Source: Microbacterium sp. Marseille-Q6648 (GTDB lineage: Bacteria > Actinomycetota > Actinomycetes > Actinomycetales > Microbacteriaceae). From it: a stretch of DNA of 64,000 nucleotides. Where the stretch lies: the NCBI RefSeq assembly GCF_943181415.1, contig NZ_CALPBZ010000001.1, positions 1,488,001 through 1,552,000 of the forward strand. The letters are read 5' to 3'. The notes below the pieces were generated by a model. It was not told the origin of the DNA. It was given only the letters and a program-made list of their open reading frames with translations, and did no database searches. The position numbers and the translations under genes were made by a program. This document shows positions 43,901 to 52,293 of this stretch, piece after piece. Numbering within the stretch: position 1 is the first letter of the stretch; each line of letters begins with the position of its first letter.

Positions 43901-43920
43901 CCCTCACCACTCGGTGAGGG
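43901..43920. terminator. Bidirectional hairpin between yajQ-family and BTAD genes
   Basis: CCCTCACC (43901-43908) and GGTGAGGG (43913-43920) are perfect 8-base arms with an ACTC loop. The hairpin overlaps the last codons of the minus-strand regulator (stop 43904) and begins 33 bases after the yajQ-family stop. Confidence 0.65.
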
Positions 43921-46633
43921 TCCACACCTCGGGCCGCACCGCCGCGCCCTGCACGTCGGCGAAGGCGGCCGCCGCGAGCTTGAGCTCCGCAACCGCCTCA
44001 TCGTTTCGACCGGCGGCGTGCAGCAGGTCGGCGGTCTGCGAATGCAGAGCCGCGAGACGGTGACGGTCGCCCTGCCGCTCGGCGAGCACCAGGGCCTCGC
44101 GCGCCGCGTCCAGCGCGAGCGGACCGTCACCGGCGGCGGCGAGCGCCCGTGAGAGATTGTTCAGCGCGGCGATCAGCAGATCGGTGTTGCCGTGGGCGCG
44201 AGCGCGCGCGACGGCATCCCGCAGATGCTCTTCGGCGCGCACGACCTGCCCGTCGGCCAGGGCGATCATCCCGAGGACGTTGCCGGCCTGCGTGCGTGCC
44301 GCATCGTCACCCGATGCGACGGCGGCGCGCTCGGCCGCACTCGCGGCCTCCCTCGCTTCGAGGTCGTGACTCCGGCGATGCAGTACGAGTGCGAGGTCTG
44401 CCGACACCCGCGCTCGGCGACCCCCCGGCCCCTCTGCGGCGAGATCGCGTGCCGCCTCCAGATGGGCCTGAGCCAGTGCCCAGTCACCGAGACGGTCGTG
44501 CACCCCTGCGATGGCGTGCTCGATCTCGGATCGACGTCGAGGTTCGCCCTCGGCCATGGCCGAGGCCTGGTCGAGCGCGATGAGCGCCTCGGGATAGCGA
44601 CCGAGTCGGACGAGAGCGGCTCCGATCGCCGAGTACTCGTCGACACCGCCTCGGCCCAGGGCCAGCGCTGCCCGCAGCTGGAGGATCGATTCCTCGTGGG
44701 CGGACACGCTCGCCGACTCAGCCGCCGCTTTCAGGAACCACGATGCCGCCTCCGTTTCGCGACCCGCCTCCGCGAGATGCTGGGCTACCGAACCGGCAGG
44801 CGTGGCACGCGGATCGACCGCGTGCCGCCGCGCGAGGACGTCGGCGACGCGGGCGTGCAGGAGGCGACGCCGAGCCAGCGACAGCCCCTGCAACGCCGCG
44901 CTCCTCACGAGGTCGTGCGGCGCGTCGTAGCCGGGCGTGTCGTCGTGCTCGACGAGAAGGCCCCGGGCGACCGCCTCCTCGATCGCTTCGACGGTCTCGG
45001 TCTCGTCGCGCCCACTCACCGCGCGCAGCAGTTCCGGCGTGGCGACCGAGCCGATCACGACGGATGCCGCTACGACCTGTCGTGCCGTTTCGGACGCCGC
45101 GGTGAAGCGAGCCGACACGATGTCGCGCACCTGGCCGCCCTCCGCTTCCGAGGGCGCTGCGACCACTTCTCGCACGAGCAGCGGGACGCCCCGGGTTCGG
45201 CGCAGGACCTCCGCCGCGTCGACGCCTTGTCCGGCGAGTTCGACGATCTGACGCTCGTCGAACGGCTGCAGCAGGATCGTCTCGCCGGACTCCGCGACCG
45301 CCTGCTGGAGAGGCCCGTCCGTGAGCCCCGGTGCCCACGCGACGACAAGGAGCACGCCCGCCGGAAGCCGCCGCGCGATGTACCCGAGCAGCGCCGCAGA
45401 GGGCCTGTCCAGCAGTTCCGCGTCATCGACCACGAGCAGCAGGGGCTCCCCGACCGTCAGTCTCTCGATCGCTGTGCGGACGGCCTCGTGCACGCGCTGC
45501 AGGTCGCCAGGGGTACGGATCGTTCGCGGTGCGGGACCGTCGACCTGTGTGGCCAAAGCCGCCAACGGCGCCGCGGACGACCCCAGGGTCACCACGAGAT
45601 CCGGCTCCACGGTCAGCAGTGAGCGCACCAGGTCGTTAGCGGCTGCGTAGGCGAGCATCGATTCCGACGCCCGTCCGGCGATCCGGATGGTCCGGCCCCC
45701 CGCATGCTCCGCTACCGCCGCAGCCAGGACGGTCTTGCCGAGTCCAGGTTCGCCGACGATGCCGATGAGGCGACCGGATGCCGGCACCGCACTCCACGCA
45801 TCGGCCAGTCGCGCCAGGTGATCCTCTCGCCCGACGAGCCTCGTCGCCGGCTGAGCGGGGGACGCGTCCGGTGTGACGGTGGGCTGCGGCGCTTCGGGGA
45901 CGGATGCCGTCGCGGGTCGCGCGAGTCGATCGGCGCGGATGTCTTCGTGCAGCGCCGACGTCTCGGGGAGGGGCGCCACCCCGAGCTCGCGGTCGAGGAG
46001 TCGCACCAGACTCCGGTAGGCGCGCAGCGCCCCGGGCCGGTCACCGGCCCATGCCGACACCCGGATGACGTCGGCGTGTGCGGGTTCCGAGAGCGGATCC
46101 ACCTGTACGCGCCTCCGGGCCCATTCGACCGCTTCGGGCCACGAGCCGCCGTCGGTGGCCGTGGCGACGAGCCGGGCAAGGGTGCGAGAAAGCTCGTTGC
46201 GCAGCTCGTCGGCGACGCCCAGCATCCAATCGTCGAACGGCGGGCTGTCTCGCAGCGCGAAGCCTTCCGCGAACCGTTCGGCTGCGAAGTCTGCAGCGCG
46301 GCGCCAATCGGCTGCGTCGGGCGACGCGGCGAGTCGGCGGAACTCGACCACATCGCAGTCCACCGCCCCGGCATCCATACCGACGCGATCGGCGTGCACG
46401 ACGAGCGATGGACCGACGGCGGCCGCGACGGACAGCGTGCGCCTCAGAGCGGCGCGAGCGCGCGTCCTCTCCAGGTCCGGCCACAGCATTCCCGCGAGCG
46501 CGTCTCGGCCGAACTCCCGCCCCGTGACCGCCAGCAGGGCCAGGAGAGCGACTGCCTTGCGCGTGTCGAACCGCACGTCTGCGCCGTCCCGCCGCACGCG
46601 AGGCGGTCCCAGCAGCTCCAGTCGCACGGACAC
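43904..46633 (-). CDS. BTAD/AAA/TPR large transcriptional regulator (SARP-like)
   Basis: A 909-residue regulator. The N-terminal ~90 residues form a winged helix of the OmpR/SARP type (VRLELLGPPRVRRDG, with ALAGMLWPDL as the recognition region), followed by the bacterial transcriptional activation domain to about 235. A linker leads to a STAND/AAA module with Walker A GEPGLGKT near 293-300 and Walker B LLLVVDDAELLD. The C-terminal half is TPR-like helical repeats (about 650-900). The GTG at 46633 has AAAGGGG at a good distance and begins the domain exactly; a longer frame exists. It is divergent from the SpoIIE-like gene, so control of that cluster is an obvious guess. Confidence 0.85.
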   Translation of the reverse strand: MSVRLELLGPPRVRRDGADVRFDTRKAVALLALLAVTGREFGRDALAGMLWPDLERTRARAALRRTLSVAAAVGPSLVVHADRVGMDAGAVDCDVVEFRRLAASPDAADWRRAADFAAERFAEGFALRDSPPFDDWMLGVADELRNELSRTLARLVATATDGGSWPEAVEWARRRVQVDPLSEPAHADVIRVSAWAGDRPGALRAYRSLVRLLDRELGVAPLPETSALHEDIRADRLARPATASVPEAPQPTVTPDASPAQPATRLVGREDHLARLADAWSAVPASGRLIGIVGEPGLGKTVLAAAVAEHAGGRTIRIAGRASESMLAYAAANDLVRSLLTVEPDLVVTLGSSAAPLAALATQVDGPAPRTIRTPGDLQRVHEAVRTAIERLTVGEPLLLVVDDAELLDRPSAALLGYIARRLPAGVLLVVAWAPGLTDGPLQQAVAESGETILLQPFDERQIVELAGQGVDAAEVLRRTRGVPLLVREVVAAPSEAEGGQVRDIVSARFTAASETARQVVAASVVIGSVATPELLRAVSGRDETETVEAIEEAVARGLLVEHDDTPGYDAPHDLVRSAALQGLSLARRRLLHARVADVLARRHAVDPRATPAGSVAQHLAEAGRETEAASWFLKAAAESASVSAHEESILQLRAALALGRGGVDEYSAIGAALVRLGRYPEALIALDQASAMAEGEPRRRSEIEHAIAGVHDRLGDWALAQAHLEAARDLAAEGPGGRRARVSADLALVLHRRSHDLEAREAASAAERAAVASGDDAARTQAGNVLGMIALADGQVVRAEEHLRDAVARARAHGNTDLLIAALNNLSRALAAAGDGPLALDAAREALVLAERQGDRHRLAALHSQTADLLHAAGRNDEAVAELKLAAAAFADVQGAAVRPEVWTLTEW

Positions 46634-46788
46634 GATCACCCCTTTGAGGACACCGTAACGGTGTGAGGGCATCCACAGCGTTCCGAGTTCGCAGATCAAC
46701 TCGAATCCGTAACGCTTTCGGAACGCCGGCCGGAGCATCATCGTTGCAGTACCGGCCGCTGTGCAGCGGTCCGGTCGAGGAGGATCGG

Positions 46789-48471
46789 ATGACCGACACG
46801 CTCGAGACAGCGACGCAGACGGCGGCGGATCCGCAGCGGCTCGACGTGCAGGACGGGCCGGACGGCGGCGAGCGCGGGCGCCGACGGGCCGGAGACCGAA
46901 GGACGTCCAGGGCTGCCCGTCGCGGTCACCAGAGTGCGGTTCCGTCGCGGGCTCGCCGGATCGAGATCGAGATCGAACCCGGTGATCCGCTGCTGGTCTA
47001 TCTGCAGTCCGCCTCGGGACCCGTCGACATCGGCGCGCTGCCCGCGTACTCTCCCGCGGTGGCGAGGATGATCGCCCAGGAAGTGCAGCTGGTCGTGCCG
47101 CTCGTCACGAGCGGCGAACTCGTCGGCATCCTCGCTCTGGGACAGCGGCTCTCGGAGAGGACGTACTCCCGCAACGACCGCCGACTGCTCGACAGCCTCG
47201 CACGGTACGCGGCGCCGGCCCTGCGGCTGGGCCAGCTGATGCGGGTGCAGGAGCGTGAGGCCCGGGAGCGGGAACGCATCGAGCAGGAGCTGCATGTCGC
47301 TCAGCTCATCCAGCAGCAGTTCCTTCCGGCCCAGCTGCCGGAACTGGGCGGGTGGAATGTGGCTGCCTTCTACCGGCCCGCGCGCACGGTCGGCGGGGAC
47401 TTCTACGACCTCATCGAGCTGCCCGACGGCAGGATCATGGTCGTCACCGGCGATGTCACAGACAAGGGCGTGCCGGCTGCGCTCGTGATGGCCAGCACGC
47501 ACGCGCTGCTGCGATCGGCGGCTTCCGCGGTGACCTCACCGGGCGAGGTGCTTCGCCGCGTGAATGAACTGCTCATTCCGCAGATCCCCACCCACATGTT
47601 CGTGACGTGCCTCGTGCTGGTGCTCGACCTCGAGTCCGGCCGCACGCACTTCGCGAACGCGGGACACAATCTGCCGTATGTGCAGCGCGGCGAACGGGTC
47701 GTCCAGCTGCACGCGCGCGGGATGCCGCTGGGACTGATGTCCGGCAGCGTCTACGAAGAGCACGAGACCGTCATCGGGCCGGGCGAGATCGTGCTGTTGT
47801 ACAGCGACGGCATCACCGAGCAGCACCGCGCCGATGGTGAGATGTTCGGATTCGGGCGGACCGCAGCGCTGGTCGCAGGGGCCGACACCGGCCAGCAGCT
47901 CGTCGACGACGCCGTCCACGCCCTGGGTGCGTTCTCCGCGGGCGTCGACCAGGAGGACGACATCACCCTGGTGACACTCCAGCGAGGTCGCCGCGGCGGA
48001 GTCGCCGATTCGCTGTCGTTCTCTGTTGCGAGCGAGCCGGGCAACGAGCGCGATGCAATGGACAAGGTCGCCTCGATCGCGGCCACGGCGCTGGAGGGTG
48101 CGCGCCTGGACGCCCTCAAGACCGCCGTCAGCGAGACGGTGATGAACGCCATCGAGCACGGCAACCGCGCAGACGCCGCGCTCGACGTGCTCATCACCGC
48201 CCGGCGAACCTCGGAGTACGTGACCGTCGAGGTGTCCGACTTCGGCCGGGGACTTCGGCAGGATGCCGAGACGCCGGACCTGGACCTGAAGCTGGCCGGA
48301 CTGCAGCGACCCCGTGGGTGGGGGCTGTTCCTCGTGCGCGAGCTCGTCGACCACGTCGAGGAGTTCGGCGACGGCGATCGGCACGTCGTCCGACTCGTGA
48401 TGCGTGTGGATGGAACGGATGCGGCGGCCACGGTCGCGCGGGGCGGAGGGAACCATGGGAATGACTCATGA
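46789..48471 (+). CDS. PP2C (SpoIIE) phosphatase fused to an anti-sigma serine kinase domain
   Basis: Partner-switching protein of 560 residues. An Arg-rich N-terminus (1-57) is followed by the second half of a GAF-like domain (about 60-145: DPLLVYLQSASG, VVPLVTSGELVGILALGQRL), a coiled coil (148-178), and a SpoIIE phosphatase domain (185-395) with VGGDFYD (201-207) and GDVTDKG (221-227). A C-terminal RsbW-like HATPase domain (410-550) has the N-box TVMNAIEHGN and a G-box DFGRGL. It would both phosphorylate and dephosphorylate STAS partners. AGGAGG is six bases before the ATG. The truncated GAF start suggests that the missing upstream sensor half is encoded by the separate membrane proteins in the same cluster. 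Confidence 0.92.
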   Translation: MTDTLETATQTAADPQRLDVQDGPDGGERGRRRAGDRRTSRAARRGHQSAVPSRARRIEIEIEPGDPLLVYLQSASGPVDIGALPAYSPAVARMIAQEVQLVVPLVTSGELVGILALGQRLSERTYSRNDRRLLDSLARYAAPALRLGQLMRVQEREARERERIEQELHVAQLIQQQFLPAQLPELGGWNVAAFYRPARTVGGDFYDLIELPDGRIMVVTGDVTDKGVPAALVMASTHALLRSAASAVTSPGEVLRRVNELLIPQIPTHMFVTCLVLVLDLESGRTHFANAGHNLPYVQRGERVVQLHARGMPLGLMSGSVYEEHETVIGPGEIVLLYSDGITEQHRADGEMFGFGRTAALVAGADTGQQLVDDAVHALGAFSAGVDQEDDITLVTLQRGRRGGVADSLSFSVASEPGNERDAMDKVASIAATALEGARLDALKTAVSETVMNAIEHGNRADAALDVLITARRTSEYVTVEVSDFGRGLRQDAETPDLDLKLAGLQRPRGWGLFLVRELVDHVEEFGDGDRHVVRLVMRVDGTDAAATVARGGGNHGNDS

Positions 48472-48778
48472 AATTCGTCGAAAGGGCGATCGTGTCGATG
48501 TCGTCCTGGTGGGCAGGATCGACAGGGACGCGACGACGGATCTGGACGCGGCGTTCTCCGCGGCATCCATCGACTCGCCCGCGTCGATTCAGCTGGACTT
48601 CACGGACGTCGACTACATCAACTCGACGGGGATCGCCCTCATCGTCAGCCTTCTGGCGCGGGCACGCGCGGAGGGGATCGGCGTGCGGGCCTCGGGCCTC
48701 ACCGAGCACTACCGACACATCTTCGAGATCACCCGGCTGAGCGACTTCATCGACATCGTGCAGCCGGTGAAGGGGTAG
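48455..48778 (+). CDS. STAS domain anti-sigma factor antagonist (first)
   Basis: A 107-residue SpoIIAA/RsbV-like protein. The phosphorylatable Ser/Thr lie in DYINSTGIAL (Ser57, Thr58), and the family's C-terminal VRASGLTEHYRHIFEITRL follows. Its ATG at 48455 has GGAGGG upstream and starts inside the last codons of the phosphatase gene. It is the natural substrate and partner of the fused kinase/phosphatase. Confidence 0.93.
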   Translation: MGMTHEIRRKGDRVDVVLVGRIDRDATTDLDAAFSAASIDSPASIQLDFTDVDYINSTGIALIVSLLARARAEGIGVRASGLTEHYRHIFEITRLSDFIDIVQPVKG

Positions 48779-48787
48779 GGAATCGTC

Positions 48788-49150
48788 ATGGCATCCGCAG
48801 CGCGCATGGACGTCACTCACCCCGCACCGGGGGCGGCGGCGATCACCATCGCGGGCGACGTCACCGCAGCGTGCGAGGACGACCTGATGGCGGCGCACGA
48901 GAGCGCATCCGACCGCGGCGCGAAACTCATCGTCCTCGACTTCTCGGGCATGGCCTACATGAACAGCGGCGGGATCGGCATGCTCGTGACGCTGCTCGTC
49001 CGCGGACAGCGCCGACAGCAGCGGATCGCCGCGGTCGGCCTGACCGATCATTACCGGCAGATCTTCGAGCTCACCCGGCTCGACGAGGCGATCGCGCTCC
49101 ATGACGACACCGAATCGGCGATCCGGGCGCTCTCCACACAAGGAGGATGA
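48788..49150 (+). CDS. STAS domain anti-sigma factor antagonist (second)
   Basis: A 120-residue paralogue of the previous protein. The phosphosite is YMNSGGIGML (Ser60), with Gly replacing the Thr that follows in the first copy. The segment AAVGLTDHYRQIFELTRLDEAIAL is closely similar to its neighbour, pointing to a tandem duplication. Its end overlaps the ribosome site of the next gene. Confidence 0.92.
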   Translation: MASAARMDVTHPAPGAAAITIAGDVTAACEDDLMAAHESASDRGAKLIVLDFSGMAYMNSGGIGMLVTLLVRGQRRQQRIAAVGLTDHYRQIFELTRLDEAIALHDDTESAIRALSTQGG

Positions 49151-49152
49151 GC

Positions 49153-49872
49153 ATGGCAGAACAGAACGGTGCGGTACCTCGGGACGCGGCCTTCTGGGCC
49201 GCGAAGGTGGATCGCCTGCAGGTGAGCGACCCCACCGAACCGCACGGCTACAACGTTCAGGGCAAGCGCGTCGCAGGCCCCATGAACGGCTTCGGCCGCT
49301 TATGGCAGCGCACCTACGTCGCCGACCTCGGCGATTCGGTCACCCCCGAGACCCTGATCGCCGACTGGCGCGCGCACTTCGGCCGGTACTGGCCGCGAAT
49401 GGGGCGATTCCACGGCTCGGTGTCTGCGATCGAACCGGGCGATGTCACGGCGCTGACGGCGGGCGGGATGACGACCGGCATCATGGTGCTCTACGCCGAC
49501 GACACCTCTTTCACCTTCCTCACACCAGAGGGGCACATGTTCGCGGCGATGATCACCTTCTCCGCCGAGACCGACGGCACGGGCCGCACGATCGCCCAGA
49601 TCCGGATGCTCCTGCGCTGCTCGGACCCGCTCTTCGAGAGCATGTGGCCGCTCGCACGACGGGGCGAGGACGTCTTCTGGCCGGGTGTCCTGCGCAACCT
49701 TGCCGCCGCCCACGGTGTCGGAGAGGTCGAGGTCGGCGAGCAGACGATCTGCGTCGACCGCCGGCGGCTCTGGGCGAACTGGAGGAATGTGCGTCACAAC
49801 GCGGGCATCCGCACGCTCACCCACGCTGTGACCGCGCCGCTCCGCCTTCGTCGAACAGGGACGGCGACCTGA
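49153..49872 (+). CDS. Protein of unknown function in the partner-switching cluster
   Basis: A 239-residue soluble protein that I do not recognise. Its middle (about 75-160) alternates short beta strands and loops (GSVSAIEPGDVTALTAG, TSFTFLTPEGHMFAAMITFSA), which could be a START/SRPBCC-like ligand pocket. A conserved-looking FWPGVLRNLAAAHGV helix follows near 175. No signal peptide or membrane helix is seen. ATG 49153 lies six bases after AGGAGG and is better than the ATG at 49147. Its position between the STAS genes and the membrane proteins suggests a signalling or ligand-binding part of the same system. Confidence 0.75.
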   Translation: MAEQNGAVPRDAAFWAAKVDRLQVSDPTEPHGYNVQGKRVAGPMNGFGRLWQRTYVADLGDSVTPETLIADWRAHFGRYWPRMGRFHGSVSAIEPGDVTALTAGGMTTGIMVLYADDTSFTFLTPEGHMFAAMITFSAETDGTGRTIAQIRMLLRCSDPLFESMWPLARRGEDVFWPGVLRNLAAAHGVGEVEVGEQTICVDRRRLWANWRNVRHNAGIRTLTHAVTAPLRLRRTGTAT

Positions 49873-49912
49873 TGGATCCGGTGATGGGGCCGGCGGCGGG
49901 GAGCGCGCCATC

Positions 49913-51100
49913 ATGATCCCCCGCGGTGCGCGCGACAATGCTCGTCGAGCGGCCATCTGGGTGGGAGTGGGCGTGCTCCTCGCGCTGAACGCCGCTCTCG
50001 CGGTCGGATTCGGTGCGGTCACGGGCCTTCTCGGCTTCAGCGGATTCCCGATCGTGGGCGCGATCATCCTGATGACGCGTCCACGGAACGGCGTAGGGAG
50101 GTACCTCTACGCCGTCGGGATCCTCTGGGGTGTCAGCGCTGCGATGGCTCTCGCGGGCGGGTTCGCCGACACCGGAGGCTGGTCGGGGGTCGCAGGCGTT
50201 GCGACGGGACCGGCCTGGGCCGAAGCCATCCAGGCCGCTCTGGGCTGGCCCGCCTGGGTGATGCTTCCGCTCATCGGATTGATCTTTCCGACCGGTCGTG
50301 TCGAGACGCGGAGCGGCCGCGCTCTGTTCTGGCTGCTCATCGGTTTCGCAGCGCTCGCAGGCGCGGCCGAGGCGGTCCGACCCGGCCCCCTGCCGGTGAG
50401 CGCGCGACCGAACCCACTGGGCGTCCCCGCTCTCACGGGGCTGACCGACGCCGTCACGGGCCCTGTCGGACTGGTGTGCTTCCTGGGGATCATCGTCGCC
50501 GTCATCGTCGATCTCGCGGTGCGGTGGCGACGCTCTTCCGGCGCCGACCGCCTGCAGTACCGGTGGCTGGTGTTCGGCCTTGTCTCCACGATCGCCATCG
50601 TCGCGCTTTCGGGCGCCATCAACGCGGTGTTCCCCGGCCGGGCCTGGGTCGAGATCTGGTCGGCGATCGCCGTGCTCTCGACGAACCTGATTCCCGTGGC
50701 CATCGGCATCGCCGTCACACGACACGGCCTGTACGAGCTCGGGCGGGTCGTCTCGCGGACCGTGTCCTATGCGATCGTCACTGCATTGGTCATCGGGATC
50801 TACGCCGCAGCCGTGACCTCGACCACGCGGCTCCTGCCCGATCTGCCGACAGTCGGAGTCGCCGTGGCCACCCTCGTGGCCGCGGCGCTCTTCCTCCCTG
50901 CGCTCAGAATGGTTCAGCGCCGGATCGATCGGCGCTTCGACCGCGAGCATTACGACGCGCAGGAAGTCGTCGACGAGTTCGGCGAACGTCTCCGCATCGG
51001 AACCGACCCGCTCACGACATCCGACGACCTCACTCGCGCCGTCGAGCGCACTCTGCAGCCGACGGCGATCGGCCTCTGGACGACAGGAGCCGGGTCGTGA
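49913..51100 (+). CDS. Multi-helix membrane sensor-like protein, detached from any kinase (first)
   Basis: A 395-residue protein with about eight membrane helices over residues 10-320, then a short cytoplasmic end: RRIDRRFDREHYDAQEVVDEFGERLR ... TRAVERTLQPTAIGLWT. In multidomain actinobacterial sensors this same membrane-plus-coil segment is followed directly by GAF, kinase or SpoIIE domains; here the protein stops. It therefore looks like the input half of a split receptor. The next gene encodes a paralogue with an overlapping GTGA start. Confidence 0.78.
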   Translation: MIPRGARDNARRAAIWVGVGVLLALNAALAVGFGAVTGLLGFSGFPIVGAIILMTRPRNGVGRYLYAVGILWGVSAAMALAGGFADTGGWSGVAGVATGPAWAEAIQAALGWPAWVMLPLIGLIFPTGRVETRSGRALFWLLIGFAALAGAAEAVRPGPLPVSARPNPLGVPALTGLTDAVTGPVGLVCFLGIIVAVIVDLAVRWRRSSGADRLQYRWLVFGLVSTIAIVALSGAINAVFPGRAWVEIWSAIAVLSTNLIPVAIGIAVTRHGLYELGRVVSRTVSYAIVTALVIGIYAAAVTSTTRLLPDLPTVGVAVATLVAAALFLPALRMVQRRIDRRFDREHYDAQEVVDEFGERLRIGTDPLTTSDDLTRAVERTLQPTAIGLWTTGAGS

Positions 51101-52293
51101 GCGACCGGACCCGTCGCCGCAACGATCGTGCGCGGGCCTGGCCCGCTTTTCTGTGCGCCGGAGTGGTCCTGTCGATGCTCATGGTGACGATCGCGGCGTA
51201 CGTGGCGGACGGACGCCCCGCAGGGGACGCCGCGCCGTTCCTCACTTTGTTGACGATCTTCGTCGGCGTCGGCTGCCTGCTTTCGTGGAAGCGTCCGCTC
51301 AATCCGATCGGCTGGCTGCTTCTGCTGATCCCGGCCCTCTTCACGATCGGGACGCCCGCGACCCTCCTCGGCGAAGCTCTCCTCCCGTCGGCGCCCGATC
51401 TCTCGGCATGGTTGTTCTGGTACGGCTACGACCGCGAGGACACGTGGAGCTGGCTCCCGCCGATCGGACTGCTCCTCACCCAGATCCCCCTCCGATTCCC
51501 CGACGGCGCATTGCCGTCGCCACGATGGCGGTGGTTCTCTCGGTATACGATCGCCGCACTCGTCATGGCGAGCGCGGGACTGTCGACGCTGTCCGCAGAG
51601 GTCTATCCCGGTATCCCCAACCCCGCCCATCTGTCCGCGCTCGCCGAGAATCCGCTCATCATCCCGGTGTCCTTCGCCGCGCTGGCGGTAGCATTCATCG
51701 GCTCGCTCGCCTCGCTCATCGTGCGCTACCGGCGCGCGGACCCGGTCCAGCGCGCGCAACTGCGGTGGATGCTGTGGGCGGTCGGGCTGGCCGTGGCGAT
51801 TCTGATCGCGAGCTGGATCATCCCCGACCCGTGGATGGGTATCACCGGCGTCGTGCTCGTGTCGTACGGGCTGATCCCCGTCGCGATCGCCATCGCCGTG
51901 CTTCGCTACCGCCTGTACGAGATCGATCGCATCATCTCGCGCACGGCCGCCTACGCGCTGGTGACCGCCGTCGCTGTCGCGATCTACACGATCGTCGTGA
52001 CCTCGGTCGCGTGGCTGCTTCCTGACGCCACCACCCTCGGCGTCGCCCTGGCGACGCTCCTGGCAGCGGGGGTCTTCCTTCCGGTCCTGCGCGTGTCGCG
52101 TCGTCTCCTCGACCGCAGGTTCAATCGCGCGCAGTACGACGCCGAGCGTGTCGTGGATGCCTTCGGGGATCGGCTTCGGACCGGCGTCGACCCGCACACT
52201 GCCGCCGCCGACCTCACGGGCGCGGTCGAACGGACCCTCGAGCCTTCCGTCGTCGGCATCTGGACCCGTCCACCGCCTCGGGACGACGAGTAG
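51097..52293 (+). CDS. Multi-helix membrane sensor-like protein, detached from any kinase (second)
   Basis: A 398-residue paralogue of the preceding protein. The tail aligns closely: YEIDRIISRTAAYALVTAVAV, LLDRRFNRAQYDAERVVDAFGDRLR, TGAVERTLEPSVVGIW. The outer parts of the helices differ more, with a Trp/Tyr/Asp-rich loop (FWYGYDREDTWSWLPP) that could contact a ligand. GTG at 51097 overlaps the previous stop. No kinase domain follows. Confidence 0.78.
   Translation: MSDRTRRRNDRARAWPAFLCAGVVLSMLMVTIAAYVADGRPAGDAAPFLTLLTIFVGVGCLLSWKRPLNPIGWLLLLIPALFTIGTPATLLGEALLPSAPDLSAWLFWYGYDREDTWSWLPPIGLLLTQIPLRFPDGALPSPRWRWFSRYTIAALVMASAGLSTLSAEVYPGIPNPAHLSALAENPLIIPVSFAALAVAFIGSLASLIVRYRRADPVQRAQLRWMLWAVGLAVAILIASWIIPDPWMGITGVVLVSYGLIPVAIAIAVLRYRLYEIDRIISRTAAYALVTAVAVAIYTIVVTSVAWLLPDATTLGVALATLLAAGVFLPVLRVSRRLLDRRFNRAQYDAERVVDAFGDRLRTGVDPHTAAADLTGAVERTLEPSVVGIWTRPPPRDDE

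Follow-up and report, generated by a model that had tools for sequence, protein, structure and literature searches.

A window of 64,000 nucleotides from Microbacterium sp. Marseille-Q6648 (contig NZ_CALPBZ010000001.1, positions 1,488,001 to 1,552,000) contains a partner-switching cluster whose membrane receptor has probably been cut inside a GAF domain, exchangeable stand-alone membrane proteins (M proteins, here M1 and M2) docking on one soluble phosphatase-kinase (P0001) by completing its GAF. The output is of a known kind, partner switching, and what is new is that the GAF itself is cut and that one output serves many receptors. Many bacterial sensors carry input and output on one chain; this arrangement was not described in the open-access literature, judged by titles and the starts of abstracts among the matches listed. 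Comparison of sequences establishes the tiling of one GAF by the two pieces, the existence of natural single chains, the neighbourhood and co-occurrence of the genes, and the divergence of the receptor inputs with similar C-terminal parts.

P0001 (46789-48471, forward strand, as are all cluster genes unless stated) starts at ATG 46789, GTG 46663 being a possible alternative start of the open frame, and contains complete SpoIIE (PF07228, 2.8e-48) and HATPase_c_2 (PF13581, 3.2e-19) domains by Pfam. The first is a PPM phosphatase (47422-47985) with the acidic motifs VGGDFYD, GDVTDKG, SDG and EDD, and the second an RsbW-type kinase (48028-48399) with the motifs SETVMNAIEHGN, DFGRG and GWGLFLV. Ahead of both lies only the back part of a GAF (46963-47223, first residues IEIEPGDPLLVYLQ), matched from profile positions 46 of 133, 79 of 129 and 88 of 136 by three Pfam GAF models; P0001 does not carry a complete GAF on its own chain, and a full-length PF01590 match is obtained only after an M tail has been joined to it. 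M1 (49913-51100) and M2 (51097-52293, its start GTG overlapping the M1 stop; 38% identical to M1 over the matched part) end in ...DDLTRAVERTLQPTAIGLWTTGAGS and ...ADLTGAVERTLEPSVVGIWTRPPPRDDE, shortly past VERTLQP/VERTLEP and a short Trp-bearing stretch, and their tails (51005-51097, a helix and a VERTLQP..IGLWTT strand, and 52189-52290) correspond to the front of a GAF by the joined PF01590 match. The preliminary description had listed a SpoIIE-HATPase protein opening inside a GAF-like region, two STAS proteins, a soluble protein and two membrane proteins that stop at the segment normally preceding this region in single-chain sensors; these genes and both chain ends were found as it had placed them. 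By the profiles, PF01590 begins only at position 46-48 of 133 in P0001, and M1 and M2 stop just past the conserved helix and strand with which that GAF opens in single-chain relatives.

The tiling of one GAF by tail and half is seen with two kinds of profile. The window half alone reaches 28.4 bits against PF01590, starting at profile position 48, and joining the M1 or M2 tail to it raises the score to 33.7 or 34.3 bits with positions 1-133 covered; at two other loci the tail lifts a score of 28.7 bits to 32.1 and one of 31.6 bits to 42.9. Shuffled M1 tails (n=3) joined to the half give 28.4-30.0 bits. Over all nine controls, with three shuffles apiece of the M1, L094 and L089 tails and none of the M2 tail, the range is 27.9-32.7 bits, none starting from position 1 and each under its own real join. 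The second profile (115 positions) was built from 21 rows of related chains carrying M, GAF and histidine kinase, cut from a full-length alignment. With it, the halves alone open at position 47-58 of 115 in all 33 cases, while 88 of 90 own-locus joins (33 loci) start at 1-5 and continue into the half; of 450 joins with shuffled tails, 18 do so even when a start anywhere in positions 1-15 is counted. Of the real joins, 88 of 90 also outscore all five shuffles of their own tail, with a mean gain of 11.1 bits over the best shuffle. What this shows is that the half begins only after the tail has ended, the two being non-overlapping and an estimated 15-20 positions apart. A frameshift or wrongly placed start as the cause of the absent GAF front was rejected because the 33 halves begin at almost one domain position.

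Nature has also made the joined form. M sequence, GAF half and SpoIIE stand on one chain in L106 (Actinomycetota) and in L179, L180, L181 and L184 (Chloroflexota), and in L106 and L184 the PF01590 match runs from the M tail across the junction. STAS and DUF1990-like genes adjoin the L184 chain, whose stretch holds no separate M. L087 and L093 had been taken for further fusions and were ruled out as open-frame artefacts. In a tree of M proteins, from which L180 and L181 were left out, 20 of the 25 rows with a histidine kinase form a clade inside the stand-alone M proteins, with an unsure root; on these sequences, whether one receptor was separated or single chains were fused later is undecided by the tree. 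The idea of a split receptor thus holds in that the input and output genes together match one single-chain receptor, and leaves this direction undecided.

The M proteins end where such a split would have them end. Among 61 near-complete members the chain stops 2-42 residues (median 9) past the tail Trp column (58 of the 61 have Trp there), and no histidine kinase follows on the same chain as in HisKA_7TM receptors; HisKA_7TM itself (PF16927) is matched by two of 20 M proteins (best E 2e-4), P0002 not being one of these, and M gave no match to solved structures up to E 10. T380, P383 and W389 of the tail are among the 20 invariant columns of 20 diverse M proteins, so that tail conservation exceeds chance. 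The input region diverges even between neighbours, with an identity over residues 41-200 of 0.30 within a locus (86 pairs) vs 0.27 between loci (1744 pairs), as against 0.73 vs 0.52 over residues 266-330 and 0.68 vs 0.47 in the tail for the same pairs, and the within-locus excess is greater in the tail than in the input region in 13 of 14 loci. The whole C-terminal third of M is thus conserved in common within a locus, through selection or gene conversion.

Gene neighbourhood was surveyed in 396 Actinomycetota genomes (three candidates scored per genome for P0001, at most four for M), of which 34 matched P0001 at E 1e-60 or better and 92 matched M at 1e-10. Stretches of 3.8-20 kb were taken around 40 P0001 matches other than the window's own, and 50 SpoIIE genes were classed after addition of the window, L005-L010 and L014, with L014 and L107 then dropped as cut by contig ends. 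A separate M lies in the stretch of 28 of the 34 half-GAF SpoIIE genes (in L087 and L102, counted among the 28, as a broken or partial sequence only) and of none of the 14 SpoIIE genes without the half, five of which come from other phyla, one of these (L008) being cut at its start; Fisher's test gives p 8e-8, uncorrected for kinship. One of the 34 is a single chain. Of the 34, 32 have STAS genes nearby, 28 a DUF1990-like gene and 20 a hit to the BTAD model, the last being found near none of the 14. The closest named record to P0001, from M. lacus (L005), is 85% identical.

Outside Actinomycetota, the GAF half was matched at 1e-15 in 23 of 301 Chloroflexota genomes, and the stretches around 20 of the 27 matches, which come from 19 genomes in all, comprise ten with a separate M, four single chains and six with neither. 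The set of BTAD regulator, M, SpoIIE half, two STAS genes and DUF1990-like gene recurs in both phyla in varying order. Within G230, G261 and G116, 18 of 19 stand-alone M genes lie within about 10 kb of a GAF half, and the longer M frames of G230 and G261 (671-966 amino acids, nine genes) sit away from it. The system is also wider than the cluster as it was first described: it includes M arrays, a second phylum and orphan M genes, and relatives of the membrane proteins, which had been expected near SpoIIE and STAS genes, are there in most half-GAF loci and scattered elsewhere too. In G461 (L197, C176, 466-16430), 13 stand-alone M genes are arrayed head to tail over 16 kb, and the conserved tail is present in every one. 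No plasmid matched P0001 at 1e-60 or P0002 at 1e-10, and viral contigs gave one M locus and no GAF-half match; on that contig (L134, 259-5975) genes resembling phage terminase and portal genes (judged by eye) precede a truncated BTAD-like frame and an M gene of the stand-alone kind, and it is either chimeric or carries the genes as cargo.

Several results weigh against a GAF completed in trans. The M tail alone has no Pfam match, and GAF_2 and GAF_3 show no clear gain from it (31.4 vs 32.2 and 33.5 vs 33.7 bits for the M1 join and the half alone; only L089 gains, 38.8 vs 36.2), their matches remaining inside the half in the window joins. The custom-profile test of the tail is partly circular, the tails of both sets sharing descent, and such a match would be expected from the common descent of M; an earlier, badly cut profile of 294 positions showed no effect (joins 36.6 vs shuffles 35.7 bits; a start at the domain front in none of the 90 real joins and in one of the 450 shuffled ones). 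Among the single chains, L179 has only a weak, partial GAF_2 match below the cut-off, and in L179-L181 the part before the tail Trp, of about 200-290 residues, is shorter than M. Likeness within a locus spans residues 266-390 and not the tail alone, the tail excess surpassing that of residues 266-330 in only five of 14 loci, so that gene conversion could explain it, and the partial correlation with GAF-half distances, phosphatase distances given (36 loci, 561 pairs), is higher for the two segments preceding the tail (0.36) than for the tail (0.27), with 0.14 for the input. The AlphaFold2 (AF2) model of P0001, built on a three-row alignment, has a predicted local distance difference test (pLDDT) mostly of 70-90 in SpoIIE and HATPase and of 33-59 per ten-residue block over residues 61-150; the low values of the half fit an incomplete domain, and they depend on three sequences, a shallow alignment that could also cause them. 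Much of this would agree with M and SpoIIE belonging to one pathway in which tail and half are shortened remnants that do not complete each other, the half being a dimerisation piece of its own and signals passing through helices or another protein. Taken alone, the half shows good conservation (mean column identity of 75% over 26 rows), and the AF2 model gives it, with low confidence, helices and two short strands; the lack of tail specificity in the within-locus likeness and the two Pfam models that stay out of the tail in the window joins point the same way. Against remnants stand the match of tail end and half start to the single-chain domain in 88 of 90 pairs and the conservation of a tail, soon after which the chain ends, in 61 M proteins, and this explanation is considered rather unlikely, though it deserves to be kept in mind.

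The gene census bears on a further possibility, that M tails pair mutually or with other GAF proteins and that their closeness to SpoIIE reflects common regulation only. Five of the 34 half-GAF genes have no M nearby (L006, L074, L079, L088, whose stretch begins inside the gene, and L104), as is also true of six of the 20 Chloroflexota stretches; G527 has six stand-alone M genes scattered far from its one GAF half, with no other cluster gene detected in 13-kb stretches around them, and M genes of G432 are also away from the half. G053 (98% complete) has ten M matches and no GAF half, and G198, G213, G344 and G422, all many-contig assemblies, have M with only weak, partial GAF matches. The matches of G053 lie on several contigs (L191-L194), some being fragments of a single gene; either the partner is absent or another one takes its place. 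G053, G527 and G432 speak for such other pairing, and all of these cases except G432 count against the receptor cut inside its GAF as it is proposed here. All six Chloroflexota genomes without a nearby M nevertheless encode M elsewhere, and M or the fused form is encoded in 52 of the 52 half-GAF genomes examined (31 + 2 + 19; the Chloroflexota genomes G554, G599, G647 and G674 were left out), so that SpoIIE homologues with the same N-terminus and no sensor, which would have spoken against the split, were not found. The absence of M near SpoIIE genes without the half (0 of 14), and natural fusions that join exactly M and the SpoIIE half, make such other partners very improbable.

The soluble protein between the halves, P4 (49147-49872; DUF1990-related and possibly SRPBCC-like), had been put forward as the adaptor that joins them, and its presence in the stretch of 28 of the 34 half-GAF SpoIIE genes would suit this role. 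P4 is also found beside unsplit SpoIIE receptors, the L184 chain and the M-less L098 protein with its own DUF7134, making it an unlikely joiner of halves, and no copy was detected in L083, where M and the SpoIIE half are both present. A family of about 475 amino acids adjoins the DUF1990-like gene in 15 loci (L089 13552-14979, L103 10680-12107 and 13 more), and the two members scanned are FAD/NAD(P) oxidoreductases, which points to a metabolic or ligand role for P4. It is probably not the adaptor, and a joining function is given next to no weight here. DUF1990 is matched by ten of 25 members of the P4 family with E values of at most 0.01 (best 3.5e-9), and not by the member in the window; fold matches, searched with a low-confidence model, are weak, with phosphoglucomutase at the top and most others of Bet v 1/PR-10/PYL type, none at E <= 0.001.

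If the receptor is cut inside its GAF, each M protein would contribute the input region and the first helix and strand of the domain, and the soluble protein would supply what remains of the GAF together with a long helix, a phosphatase of SpoIIE type and a kinase of RsbW type. The M tail would dock on the GAF half and complete it, and a signal in the membrane part would be passed on as a change in the long helix and the phosphatase dimer, control presumably running in this direction. Dephosphorylated STAS proteins would then bind the kinase domain and free its target; candidates for this are the BTAD regulator and a sigma factor elsewhere. Because several M proteins carry one tail type, they would share a single output, either in competition or by acting on it together.

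A set of variable inputs that have the C-terminal part in common and act on one switch is also seen in the RsbR paralogues of the stressosome, which differ from the M set in being soluble STAS complexes with no GAF and no membrane region. The M-GAF-histidine kinase chains of related genomes (L114-L133) share the membrane module and the GAF after it, and they differ in being one chain with a histidine kinase output instead of partner switching. The best fold match of P0001 (Foldseek) is PDB 3ke6, the RsbU-RsbW part of Rv1364c, which likewise has phosphatase and kinase on one chain; according to PMC12143880, Rv1364c carries PAS, RsbU, RsbW and RsbV parts on that chain, with its own PAS input and a fused STAS, whereas in the window STAS is present as two separate proteins and the P0001 chain lacks a complete input domain. 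For RsbU of the B. subtilis general stress response, the same paper describes how binding of its partner, RsbT, gives order to a flexible linker, which becomes a coiled coil and brings about dimerisation of the phosphatase (PMC12143880), so that both systems would have a SpoIIE-type phosphatase ruled by a binder of the N-terminal region that orders a helical linker. The AF2 model of P0001 places a long helix at residues 128-178 (47170-47322), between GAF half and phosphatase, its first part at low confidence; by analogy with RsbU it is likely a coiled-coil linker, and M-tail binding may order it as the RsbU partner does. Unlike RsbT, the partner in the window is integral to the membrane and its tail belongs to the GAF that the half continues, the kinase is fused to the phosphatase, and there are several partners per phosphatase.

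A broader proposal can be made only tentatively, and may well prove too wide: that these genes represent a receptor class, spread over two phyla or more, whose membrane receptors form a library (two in the window, 13 in one tandem array) and share one soluble output through strand-and-helix completion of a split GAF, that duplication of M alone swaps or adds receptors that act in trans genome-wide, and that the cascade may end on the divergent BTAD regulator and not on a sigma factor. If the cut is real, a natural break inside a folded domain, kept across phyla with many inputs for one output, would amount to a plug-in receptor system that already exists in nature. Where receptors share one phosphatase-kinase, it would become testable how specificity arises, how receptors compete and how their signals are integrated, and the pieces would offer a natural split-GAF tool.

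The components of partner switching, a SpoIIE-type PPM phosphatase, an HATPase_c_2 kinase and STAS proteins (two), are all present in the cluster. The STAS proteins are of anti-anti-sigma type in the first case (about 48455-48778; PF13466, 5.4e-12; about 107 amino acids) and matched by PF01740 (4.1e-11) in the second (48788-49150; about 120 amino acids), and each contains a Ser (...YINSTG... and ...YMNSGG...) that presumably stands at the usual place and would be a putative phosphorylation site. The neighbourhood also takes in a BTAD-AAA-TPR (SARP-type) regulator on the reverse strand (43904-46741; BTAD 5.5e-16, AAA_16 1.5e-19), divergent from the cluster. The genome G230 illustrates an exchanged input module, with two loci, L094 with M and the GAF half and L098 with neither: L098 (7154-11309) is a second STAS-STAS-DUF1990-like cluster in which SpoIIE has its own DUF7134 membrane domain replacing the GAF half, and HATPase is a separate gene. 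The leaders ahead of the halves are about 28-60 residues long (42 sequences past the length filter), and they are short, basic and often Trp/Leu-bearing, 40 of the 42 being net positive in the first 25 residues, which could possibly serve as a membrane tether. The window (46789-46960) and L005 are the exceptions, with the basic run sitting further on: residues 1-58 of P0001, for which Pfam gives no GAF match, are of low complexity and contain a run of mostly Arg that begins at about residue 28.

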